Below are positions 14,274 through 18,869 of a DNA stretch of 34,332 bases, one piece after another; position 1 is the first letter of the stretch; each line of letters opens with the position of its first letter. Under the pieces are notes generated by a model. The model did no database searches. It was not told where the DNA came from and saw only the letters and a program-made list of their open reading frames with translations. This DNA is from Micrococcales bacterium. GTDB taxonomy: Bacteria; Actinomycetota; Actinomycetes; Actinomycetales; Microbacteriaceae. The stretch spans positions 1-34,332 of the forward strand of contig JAHEDU010000013.1 of the NCBI GenBank assembly GCA_024641015.1, in the 5' to 3' direction. The translations under genes were made by a program, and so were the position numbers.

Positions 14274-14315
14274 AATGTCTACGGCAAACCTCAGACACGA
14301 AACCCAGGAGGCGCA

Positions 14316-14954
14316 ATGAGCAACCTCGATTCGCTCAGCGACAAGCAGCGTGAAATCCTCGCCTGCATCAACGAGGCGATCACCCGCACCGGCTACCCGC
14401 CGAGCCTGCGCGAGATCGGTGACTCGGTCGGACTCTCGTCCATCTCCTCCGTCAGCCACCAACTGACTCAGTTGGAACTTCGTGGTTTCATTCGTCGTGA
14501 CCCGAACCTAAACCGGGCCATTGAAATCCTCGTCGAGCTGGACAGCAATCCCGACGCCGTTCGGGTGCGCGAAGACGACATCGTTCACGTGCCCCTCGTC
14601 GGGCGCATCGCGGCCGGTATTCCGATAACTGCCGAACAGAACGTCGACGACATGTTTGCACTCCCCCGCCAGATGGTCGGTCAGGGCAACGTGTTCATGC
14701 TCAAGGTTCAGGGCGATTCGATGATCGACGCCGCCATCTGCGACGGAGACTATGTCGTTGTGCGCGAACAGAAAACCGCCGAGAACGGTGACATCGTCGC
14801 CGCCATGCTCGACCACGAAGCGACCGTCAAGGTGTTCAAGCAGCGCGACGGTAACACATGGTTGCTCCCCCGCAACTCTGCCTATGAACCGATCGACGGC
14901 ACGTACGCCGAGGTTATGGGCAAGGTTGTTGCGGTGATTCGTTCCGTCAGCTAG
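14316..14954 (+). CDS. lexA: SOS repressor LexA
   Basis: Winged-HTH N-terminus ([21 protein letters not shown]), Ala-Gly autocleavage site (GRIAAGIPI), catalytic Ser in QGDSMIDA. Start reassigned to ATG at 14316 with AGGAGG upstream. Confidence 0.97.
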
Positions 14955-15399
14955 GCGAGAGGCTGTCTGGGTCAAAATACTTGACCATCAGCGAATATTC
15001 TTCGTCGGTCTGTCCAGGGAGTCTACTGTGCGGGTCGAGCGTATTCCCCATGAGGATTCTTCCGCCACCGAGGCGCGCTTTGCAAAGGTCTACGTTGTCG
15101 CGCATGATGTCCACGCCAAAAATTTCCAGAAGCGCAAGCTCTAAATCCATATTGAAAAAAAACAACTTGATCGCTAATGCCCCAGCCAAAAATTGACCAT
15201 CACCACATGCCGGATCTAGCACGGTTCTGCCCGGACCAAATGCCTCTATTGGGATGTTCTGGAGCAGATCGACGACGACCGAGGTCGGCGTAAACACCTC
15301 AGCTGTTGACTTCACCCGAGAAACTTCCCGCTGAACACCGGACATGAAACCATGGGAAGCAATCTCGAGCTCAATTCGAGACCAATCAACGGAGTGCAT
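14947..15399 (-). CDS. split N6-adenine DNA methyltransferase, motif X-I-II-III half (putative)
   Basis: 150 aa: [20 protein letters not shown] (motif X-like), [16 protein letters not shown] (motif I), [17 protein letters not shown] (II), ILMGNTLD (III); no motif IV in this ORF. Confidence 0.75.
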
Positions 15400-16273
15400 A
15401 GCTCATTTCTTCAGGAGTCAGCCCAAATGCGGATGCAAATTCGCCATCATCAAACAATCTATCTGCCAGTGCGAGCGGGAGCATCGAGAAGACGAGTTCA
15501 TTTCCAAAACCTGACCACTTAGCCGAATCAAAGATGTACTGCATGAATCTGTGGTTCAGGTTCTGTGACAAAGTTTGTCCCTGTTGAAAATCAGGCGTCC
15601 GGACAAAGTAAACCATGTCAGTACCTCCAAGCAACCCCGGATCGAATTGAGGTTTGGTATATCCGCTCCTGGACCAAATCACCTTCGGTTCAGATGCCCA
15701 ATCTTGCCGGACTTGGGACCACCAGATTTTCCGATTCGTGTGTAAAACCGGATAGATGTGCGTCTCAGTCTCGGTCTCCGAGAGGGTTCCTGTGGTCCTT
15801 CTCAAAATATTGTGACAACTCACATAGTCGTGTTCGACTCTTAGCCGCTCGCCATCGCTATTCATGACTTTTTCGTGAATTGAAATAGATAAGGCATTGA
15901 CGTCATTCGGCAAATACCTTGTATTTTTGGATATAACTGCCGCACCCTCTACGCCGGAATTTAATATTCTTGTGAACTCACCATTGGACTGCGAGTTGAC
16001 GATTACATAGTGGGCAAATGTACTCCCAACCCCAGGAAAAGCGGAAGCAGTATCAAAATTCATGTACTTCACAGTGCGCTCACGAAAAATTGGCAACACC
16101 TTGCTGCTCGGACTCAGAAAAGAAGCCGGTGAAACCTGCCCCAGAATTCCACCTGGCTTCAGCCATTTGTCGAATGTGGCCTTAGTGAAATCAATCCAAA
16201 GCTTATGAGGGGTCTTCCCTCTCCTAATCGAATCTTGGAACGGCGGGTTCGACAGAACTAGATCAAATTGCAC
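15386..16273 (-). CDS. split N6-adenine DNA methyltransferase, motif IV + TRD half (putative)
   Basis: 295 aa beginning MQFDLVLSNPPFQDS (motif IV NPPF) followed by a methyltransferase-like and putative target-recognition region; GTG start overlapping the TAG of the upstream gene. Confidence 0.75.
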   Translation of the reverse strand: MQFDLVLSNPPFQDSIRRGKTPHKLWIDFTKATFDKWLKPGGILGQVSPASFLSPSSKVLPIFRERTVKYMNFDTASAFPGVGSTFAHYVIVNSQSNGEFTRILNSGVEGAAVISKNTRYLPNDVNALSISIHEKVMNSDGERLRVEHDYVSCHNILRRTTGTLSETETETHIYPVLHTNRKIWWSQVRQDWASEPKVIWSRSGYTKPQFDPGLLGGTDMVYFVRTPDFQQGQTLSQNLNHRFMQYIFDSAKWSGFGNELVFSMLPLALADRLFDDGEFASAFGLTPEEMSYALR

Positions 16274-17409
16274 TATTCAAACATACTAGTGAGCTTAGAC
16301 AGGTCAACGTAAGTGTTAATCGAAGTTGCCAGTTCCTTCGATTTTTTTGGGCGACGTTGTGCTGTGCGGAGAAACATGTTTTCCTTTTTGTGGAACCGGT
16401 CACCCTCATAAACATCGCTCATCCATGCGCCGTTCTTATTTATAGTGAAAGGGATGTTGACCGATAGAACGTTCGCTCCGTCAACGGCGAATGCAAAGTC
16501 AATAGACTGCTGGCGTAATTCGTAATCGAAAGTAGTTTTCGGGTCTCGAATCTGACTCACGAGATTTGAAACTAACTCGCTCGTAACTGAATCAATGAAG
16601 TTGGAATTTGCAAGGAACAAGATTTCTTCATCACCGTCCAAGCCAGACATAGATGTAATTCTTTTGCGAATTGAGCCCGGCCTTTGTTCCTCAAAATAGT
16701 TCAGGATTTCGAAAGCGATACTCGATCCAACATCACCTATTTCCTTCCGCGCGTGGTCGAACTTCCCTTCATCGAGAAACGCGAATTCCTCAGAGTAGAC
16801 AAAGCGTTCCTTGATGGTTTCATTTATTGCGTCGAGTTTGTGGAAAAGGCTGAGACAGCCGCCCAATCCGCCCAGCTCGAAGGCCTCATCTCTCGCTTTC
16901 ACATCTGAGCCGCGGAATCGGGGAGAGCTTTCCGTAATCCTGTACATTCCGATTCCGTCAGGGACAAGCACAAAATTGTTGATGAATGAATTAAAAGTTC
17001 CAGAACTAACTTGGACCCTTCCTAGCTTCGGAACATCGTAGTTTTTGAGAGAAACAAAAAAGGTAGTCTTCGGTGAAGTTAGGTGAATCGCGAAATCGGC
17101 CTTCTTCTTCTCATTTCGTTTCTTGATTTCTACGTTTTCAAATGAGAAATTAGCCGATTCAAATTTGGACGCGAGCGCGCGGTAAAAGGTTGGGAGGTGC
17201 GTTCGCAAGTTGGAAACGTATTGCTTACCAACGCCGTAGTACAGCTCGGATTCCGACAGGCGATCCCTGCGATAATCGTCAAAATCCTGCATTAGAAGCG
17301 TCGCGCGCCGTCCCGCTAAACGTCCGTCGGCCTCGGCAAGTTGCGCGAGCATAGCTACGGCAAGCACTTCGCAAATGTCTTGAGCCAGCTTCTTTTTAGT
17401 TTCTGCCAT
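16273..17409 (-). CDS. putative restriction endonuclease partner of the split methyltransferase
   Basis: 378 aa, first gene of a tight operon with the methyltransferase halves; possible divergent PD-(D/E)xK-like pattern KADFAIHLTSPKTTFFVSLKNY. Function assigned by context. Confidence 0.5.
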   Translation of the reverse strand: MAETKKKLAQDICEVLAVAMLAQLAEADGRLAGRRATLLMQDFDDYRRDRLSESELYYGVGKQYVSNLRTHLPTFYRALASKFESANFSFENVEIKKRNEKKKADFAIHLTSPKTTFFVSLKNYDVPKLGRVQVSSGTFNSFINNFVLVPDGIGMYRITESSPRFRGSDVKARDEAFELGGLGGCLSLFHKLDAINETIKERFVYSEEFAFLDEGKFDHARKEIGDVGSSIAFEILNYFEEQRPGSIRKRITSMSGLDGDEEILFLANSNFIDSVTSELVSNLVSQIRDPKTTFDYELRQQSIDFAFAVDGANVLSVNIPFTINKNGAWMSDVYEGDRFHKKENMFLRTAQRRPKKSKELATSINTYVDLSKLTSMFE

Positions 17410-17468: not shown

Positions 17469-18869
17469 CTAGCGCAACAAAAATGCGTGAAGCCGCGCAG
17501 CCAGATCGGCCGACACACGCGCATGAATTCGCGTTCCGGATTCGACATAGTCGGTGTCCAGGACCTGGCCAGACTTGTGGATCATGCTGACGATTTCGCC
17601 ATGTTCGTAGGGGATGACTGCGGTCACCTCGATGTCCGGCTCGGGGATGGTGTCAGCAATGAGTTGTTGAAGTTCCTCAATTCCCTCCCCCGTCTTCGCT
17701 GAAACAAAGATGGCGTTGGGCTCAAGGCCGCGCAACAGGATCTGCTGGTCATTGTCGATCAGGTCGGCCTTGTTGAACACGATGATTTCGGGGATGTCCC
17801 GCGCATCTACCTCGCCAACAACATCGCGAACGGTTTTAATTTGTTGGGCAGGGTCTTCGTGAGCGGCGTCGACGACGTGAACGATCACGTCACTCATTGT
17901 GACTTCCTCAAACGTAGAGCGAAACGCCTCAACCAATTGGTGAGGAAGTTGACGAACAAAGCCGACCGTATCGGCGAGCGTGTAAGGGCGACCGTCGGGG
18001 GTAGCAGTCTTGCGGACCGTCGGGTCAAGTGTCGCAAATAGCGCATTTTCGACCAACACCCCTGCTTTGGTGATTCGGTTGAGCAGCGAGGACTTCCCCG
18101 CGTTCGTGTATCCCATGATGGCCACCGATGGGATTGCGTTGCGGATACGATTCGCGCGCTTCGCCTCACGAGCGGGTTCGAACCCCTTGATCTGAGCCCT
18201 CAGTTTCGCCATCTGCGTTCGAATGCGGCGGCGGTCAATTTCAATCTTTGTTTCACCCGGTCCACGTGAACCCATACCGGCGCCCTGGCCACCGACCTGA
18301 CCACCGGCCTGGCGGGACATGGAATCGCCCCAACCGCGAAGACGCGGAAGCAGATATTGAAGTTGGGCAAGCTCGACTTGCGCCTTGCCCTCGCGCGACT
18401 TTGCGTGCTGGGCAAAGATGTCGAGGATGACTGCAGTTCGGTCAATCACTTTGACCTTAATCGCGTCCTCAAGTGCGCGGCGTTGGCTCGGCGCAAGTTC
18501 GGTATCGGCGACCACGGTGTCGGCACCCTCTGCACGGACAATTGCAGCGAGTTCTTCGACCTTTCCTCGACCCAGATAGGTTGCAGGGTCCGGGTGGGGC
18601 TTCCGCTGAAGCAACCCGTCGAGAACTTCGGCACCGGCGGTCTCGCACAGCGCTGCGAGTTCCTTTAGCGAGTTTTCCGCATCGACTTCTTGTCCGCGCG
18701 GGTAGACGCCAATGATGACGACCTTCTCGAGACGAACCTGTCGGTATTCGACCTCGGTGATGTCTTCGAGTTCGGTGCGGAGTCCGTCGACACGTCGAAG
18801 GGTCGTGCGATCCTCAAGGTCCATCTGGCCGACGGTGGGTTCGCCATACTCGTCAAATTCGTTTGTCAT
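17469..18869 (-). CDS. hflX: GTPase HflX
   Basis: HflX N-domain (DPATYLGRGKVEELA, LPRLRGWGDSMSRQAGG, GSRGPGETKIEIDRRRI) and G motifs (GYTNAGKSSLLN, DTVGF, NKAD). Confidence 0.97.
   Translation of the reverse strand: MTNEFDEYGEPTVGQMDLEDRTTLRRVDGLRTELEDITEVEYRQVRLEKVVIIGVYPRGQEVDAENSLKELAALCETAGAEVLDGLLQRKPHPDPATYLGRGKVEELAAIVRAEGADTVVADTELAPSQRRALEDAIKVKVIDRTAVILDIFAQHAKSREGKAQVELAQLQYLLPRLRGWGDSMSRQAGGQVGGQGAGMGSRGPGETKIEIDRRRIRTQMAKLRAQIKGFEPAREAKRANRIRNAIPSVAIMGYTNAGKSSLLNRITKAGVLVENALFATLDPTVRKTATPDGRPYTLADTVGFVRQLPHQLVEAFRSTFEEVTMSDVIVHVVDAAHEDPAQQIKTVRDVVGEVDARDIPEIIVFNKADLIDNDQQILLRGLEPNAIFVSAKTGEGIEELQQLIADTIPEPDIEVTAVIPYEHGEIVSMIHKSGQVLDTDYVESGTRIHARVSADLAARLHAFLLR

Follow-up and report, generated by a model that had tools for sequence, protein, structure and literature searches.

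A split adenine methyltransferase of swapped motif order and an adjacent nuclease candidate between lexA and hflX in a Micrococcales bacterium

Introduction

N6-adenine methyltransferases of the gamma class usually carry their motifs in the linear order X-I-IV-TRD (TRD, target-recognition region), and those of the beta class in the order IV-TRD-X-I. Single enzymes can also be distributed over two genes, as in M.AquI, which is a split cytosine-C5 (m5C) enzyme. Permutation of methyltransferase motifs has usually been inferred from single-chain enzymes. Rare permuted orders have been described for M.MwoI (proposed delta class) and M.TvoORF1413P (proposed zeta group), which represent minor permuted classes (PMC3874165), and a "new class of split DNA methyltransferases" appears as a personal communication in PMC4335053. 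In the literature searched, the scope of which did not extend to REBASE, we found no published description of a split, order-swapped gamma-type pair.

Here we describe such a pair, encoded by two overlapping genes (A and B) that lie next to a third gene (R), a nuclease candidate. The pair resembles M.AquI and other split DNA methyltransferases in that one enzyme is spread over two genes, but it is of the adenine type, is cut between motifs III and IV and has its order swapped. Its likeness to M.MwoI and M.TvoORF1413P lies in the description of motif order, for which these enzymes provide a precedent.

Results and Discussion

The cassette between lexA and hflX

The window, i.e. the whole stretch of DNA analysed (34,332 nucleotides), is one entire contig (C91; JAHEDU010000013.1) of the assembly GCA_024641015.1 of a Micrococcales bacterium (Microbacteriaceae), which comprises 1.3 Mb in 91 contigs and is approximately 88% complete. 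The interval from lexA to hflX contains only the genes R, A and B. The original prediction had placed these three open reading frames on the minus strand, with motif IV in A and motifs X, I, II and III in B; the coordinates and strand hold, and the motif assignments are borne out by matches to PF02384, PF07669 and M.BseCI. The features of the region are as follows:

14313-14954, plus strand: lexA, flanking gene, whose 3' end is convergent with the cassette and overlaps the 3' end of B by 8 nt
14947-15399, minus strand: B, 150 aa, ATG start; methyltransferase subunit with motifs X, I, II and III, the AdoMet-binding half
15196-15216, minus strand: motif I (DPACGDG), B residues 62-68, invariant in 21/21 sequences
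15286-15318, minus strand: motif X region, B residues 28-38, with R28, T32, E34 and F36-T37-P38 invariant in 21/21 sequences
15386-15399, minus strand: overlap (14 nt) of the A stop and the B start; 11-44 nt in 24 further loci, with a constant relative frame
15386-16273, minus strand: A, 295 aa, GTG start; methyltransferase subunit with the motif IV region and the target-recognition region
16238-16249, minus strand: catalytic motif IV (NPPF), A residues 9-12, with N9, P10 and P11 invariant in 22/22 sequences
16273-17409, minus strand: R, 378 aa, ATG start; candidate restriction endonuclease of a family without a name
17044-17097, minus strand: putative PD-(D/E)XK-like centre of R, D105 ... S120-L-K122, with Q10/E14 upstream and Q133 downstream
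17469-18869, minus strand: hflX, flanking gene, upstream of R

The end of R overlaps the start of A by 1 nt. The GTG-initiated A protein begins with VQFDLVLSNPPFQDS, with NPPF at residues 9-12, and B contains FTP and DPACGDGQF. The cassette is AT-rich, with a GC content of 45-50% against 57-63% in the flanks. In three congeners the lexA-hflX junction is empty (gene ends approximately 10-70 bp apart), and in a fourth (L068:1602-3630) it spans approximately 2.1 kb, encoding a 579-aa protein with a GIY-YIG-like start and ATPase-like features and a 106-aa MazG-like protein (names assigned by eye). Judged by these four congeners, the junction has the appearance of a hotspot at which defence-type genes insert. 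When the A-family profile (alignment A9) was run against 396 class-level genomes, the sole match was the window's own copy, which indicates that the cassette is rare in the class of the host.

A and B correspond to the two ends of one gamma-type enzyme

In Pfam, B passes the curated cut-off for PF02384 (N6_Mtase; E 1.9e-5). For A the hit is to PF07669 (Eco57I) from its motif IV part onward, slightly short of the cut-off (E 1.8e-4). B is also similar to the N-terminus of M.BseCI (residues 8-92; profile E 2.1e-7). Both proteins were compared with a conventional-order single-chain enzyme, represented by a profile built from four tandem methyltransferases of a viral locus (L044): in hhalign comparisons A covers its residues 102-397 (prob 99.4, E 4e-21), whereas B falls on its residues 11-77 (prob 82.8, E 9e-6). 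Since the two proteins occupy complementary parts of one and the same enzyme, A and B together are, by sequence, a circularly permuted gamma-type adenine methyltransferase (TaqI/CamA/BseCI-like) in split form. As originally proposed, the two chains may assemble in trans into one enzyme.

B further aligns with the C-terminus of the single-chain permuted enzymes of Aeromonas phages (prob 98.1, E 7e-14); the proteins of AS-zj/ZPAH1 carry NPPY at the start and the B motifs at the end. The corresponding match of alignment A9 to the Aeromonas enzymes stems solely from its one fused row, and we did not take it as a match of the A half. A natural fusion is present in a phage contig (L031); it is 492 aa in length and of the same swapped order, and its A part is 50% identical to that of the window. 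The AF2 model of the fusion is of low confidence (pLDDT 62, pTM 0.55); its Foldseek matches in the PDB (CamA, M.TaqI, BrxX and BseCI, each at prob 1.0) lend weak support to membership of this family and do not bear on assembly or on completion of the Rossmann fold.

With the gamma class (M.TaqI, M.BseCI, CamA and the Eco57I/N6_Mtase families) the pair shares motif X, motif I (DPACGDG, with the AdoMet signature) and motif IV (NPPF, conforming to (N/D)PP(Y/F/W)), together with the Pfam, BseCI and L044 matches and, from the low-confidence model, fold matches to CamA and M.TaqI. It departs from that class in consisting of two chains, with the IV-TRD chain ahead of the X-I chain in 30/30 split loci. 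The order IV-TRD-X-I of the beta-class amino-methyltransferases is found both in the gene order and in the L031 fusion, but the pair belongs to gamma/Eco57I-type sequence families and has a motif IV of that type, and none of the Pfam, NCBIfam, PADLOC or PHROG matches names a beta-type family. Having gamma sequence without the gamma order or a single chain, and beta order without beta sequence, the A/B methyltransferase is assigned here to neither class.

Conservation of the split and of the swapped order

When genome and viral contigs were scanned with the A alignment, 38 loci were obtained, 34 of which (L003 and L011-L043) contain close A homologues; near-duplicates such as L032-L036 are included in this number. 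Where A is not cut by a contig end (31 of the 34), B always adjoins it in the swapped order, the two being separate genes in 30 loci and fused in L031. A followed by an overlapping B is therefore a recurrent arrangement, seen in approximately 30 loci with identities of 46-56%; among these are a finished Curtobacterium plasmid (48% for A and 55% for B) and T4-like phage contigs. NPP is invariant in A (22/22, alignment A9) and DPACGDG in B (21/21, alignment A10). Gamma-looking motifs laid out in a beta-like order and cut between motifs III and IV, as originally proposed from the window, are thus conserved in all 31 loci that can be judged. Consistently intact homologues of conventional order would speak against this proposal; among the relatives, only distant phage enzymes (L044) have that order. 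For two of the viral loci the phage identity is certain: in L040 genes for UvsX and a DnaB-like helicase lie directly upstream of the cassette, and in L037 a DnaB-like helicase gene follows it.

Two alternative readings of the split have to be weighed against this background. As the window is a single contig of a fragmented assembly, the split might reflect a sequencing error, an assembly rearrangement or the decay of a normal methyltransferase into a pseudogene. We rejected this explanation, which is extremely improbable: the same layout occurs in a complete plasmid record and in about 30 other loci, and both halves are under purifying selection, as is R (Ka/Ks 0.06-0.15 for A, 0.10-0.20 for B and 0.08-0.36 for R, the ranges excluding one B pair whose synonymous sites are saturated). 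The other reading, which we consider improbable, is that programmed frameshifting within the overlap produces a single permuted A-B polypeptide instead of a heterodimer. B lies in the +1 frame relative to A in 25/25 loci checked, and the in-frame fusion L031 proves that a single chain of this order occurs in nature; a constant frame is, however, also expected of overlapping genes by descent. The overlap varies in length from 11 to 44 nt, no common shift-prone sequence was found before the A stop in the overlap loci compared, and B retains its own start codon, with a Shine-Dalgarno-like stretch in many loci, all of which speaks against frameshifting.

R, a nuclease candidate

In 32 of the 34 loci, which were recovered with A as the only query, A/B have an R homologue beside them; identities in the alignment of the R family are 25-34%. 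In phage contigs and in a Limnochordia MAG these homologues precede A/B on the same strand, and in four actinobacteria they lie downstream in convergent orientation. The methyltransferase genes are thereby linked to a separate endonuclease-like gene, R being the putative endonuclease.

By sequence, R has no relative in Pfam, NCBIfam or the PDB, and relaxed searches of Pfam, NCBIfam and PADLOC returned chance-level matches only (e.g. PADLOC PDC-M33B, E 0.016, one member). The AF2 model of R is confident (pLDDT 93.2, pTM 0.87); it has no fold match in the PDB at E <= 0.001, and it matches two viral predicted structures, the best of them from Synechococcus phage ACG-2014f. Ten residues (Q10, E14, R98, K103, D105, K122, Q133 and S136-G137-T138) are invariant in 26/26 aligned homologues, and S120 is conserved in 25 of the 26. 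In the model, D105 precedes a strand (106-111) and K122 lies within another (114-123). The conserved residues and the predicted strand order would fit an SxK variant of the PD-(D/E)XK centre, with Ser replacing the acidic residue, although neither the PDB nor the sequence profiles searched gave a match to a solved PD-(D/E)XK fold or to a nuclease family. The original suggestion that the partner of the methyltransferase is a nuclease is therefore strengthened by the co-occurrence and by the PD-(D/E)XK-like residue pattern, and has gained nothing from fold or family matches; the nuclease activity of R is putative.

R genes with no A or B in the same record were identified in the isolated cyanophages S-SZBM1 and P-RSM6 (L080:3965-5134; L081:3983-5122), with all the conserved residues present, and A/B pairs lacking R in Curtobacterium D40 (L003) and in L011. 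These cases indicate that the linkage of R with A/B is strong, but not absolute. In two phage contigs (L017:3877-5897 and L018:3877-5897) the R proteins are 93% identical and the A proteins only 73%, a difference which indicates that R and A/B recombine separately.

Some viral loci contain an additional gene of 375-384 aa between R and A (L020:3884-5011; L026:3884-5011; L028:3857-5011; L030:1398-2525; L032:3790-4917). Its two tested representatives (L020 and L026) have no match in Pfam or PHROG, and a ParB-like identity, guessed by eye for the 375-aa product, was dropped for want of such support.

A likely restriction-modification cassette

We regard it as likely that R, A and B form a Type II-like restriction-modification cassette, composed of a two-subunit permuted methyltransferase and a cognate nuclease of a new family. 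According to this model, the cassette would have been acquired horizontally into the lexA-hflX junction. A, with the motif IV catalytic loop and the target-recognition region, and B, with motifs X and I-III and the AdoMet pocket, would be translated separately and would then come together as a single gamma-type N6-adenine methyltransferase with a cut and circularly permuted chain (IV-TRD / X-I versus X-I-IV-TRD). R, as the cognate endonuclease, would cut unmodified DNA at the site protected by the A/B enzyme, probably by means of a PD-(D/E)XK-like centre that uses D105 and S120-L-K122. The association of A and B, the base and site that are methylated, cleavage by R, the specificity that R and A/B share, and a function in defence against foreign DNA, phage DNA included, are the parts of this model that we infer. 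A Type I restriction-modification system was considered and rejected: HsdS and the HsdR helicase-nuclease are absent between lexA and hflX, and R is a protein of 378 aa without Pfam or NCBIfam matches.

A less probable reading, to which we give a minor share of our confidence, accepts the split permuted methyltransferase and takes R for an independent phage-type nuclease (serving, for example, in the breakdown of host DNA) that often travels with it. The cyanophages that carry R alone with its active-site residues intact, the two loci in which A/B lack R, and the contrasting identities of R and A in L017 and L018 are all in favour of such independence. Set against them is the co-occurrence in 32 of 34 loci, which extends over actinobacteria, another bacterial MAG and phages. 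Such an association, in two orientations and in diverse hosts, points to functional linkage rather than to one frozen phage operon.

The presence of conventional, fused-permuted and split-permuted relatives makes the steps of a natural circular permutation testable. R in turn represents a conserved family of nuclease candidates that lacks both a Pfam or NCBIfam model and a match to a solved fold. Since R occurs alongside A/B in contigs of T4-like phages, complete modification-nuclease cassettes may be part of phage genomes.

Relatives in phages and the modularity of B

Several described phages show the same A/B division or a permuted order: the genes are fused in Aeromonas AS-zj/ZPAH1, split in Klebsiella PKO111 and Shigella PSD9, and unlinked in Synechococcus ACG-2014f. 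They differ from the cassette in that the A3 profile detected no R homologue in the records of ACG-2014f and PKO111, and the A parts of AS-zj and PKO111 are without detectable BLAST similarity.

In the T4-like phages PKO111 and PSD9 (L005:1527-3462; L008:1479-3444) a GIY-YIG domain is fused to the NPPF methyltransferase half, which overlaps a separate motif I half; the GIY-YIG domain of PKO111 is LEM-3-like (E 2.7e-15). In cyanophage ACG-2014f (L082:3739-4644; L006:2968-3372) the A-only gp191 (301 aa) and the B-only gp051 are encoded 104 kb apart. Downstream of gp051 are genes for the nuclease-like gp052, the methyltransferase gp053 and a helicase, whose presence varies among isolates. The distance of gp051 from gp191, together with its proximity to the A-type gp053, raises the idea of B as a shared module. 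It is tempting, if speculative, to regard the AdoMet-binding B as an interchangeable part in the split permuted lineage, one B serving several A chains and pairing with different nucleases (the R family, or GIY-YIG in T4-like phages).

Five tandem methyltransferase genes are present in the viral contig L044 (L044:3311-9481). The N-terminal 110 aa of their products (the motif I half) are near-identical and the C-terminal halves are very different, an arrangement that resembles a specificity array. Finally, two of the loci (L003:7982-8908; L022:3003-3872) encode a second adenine methylase, of the Dam type, near the split pair.
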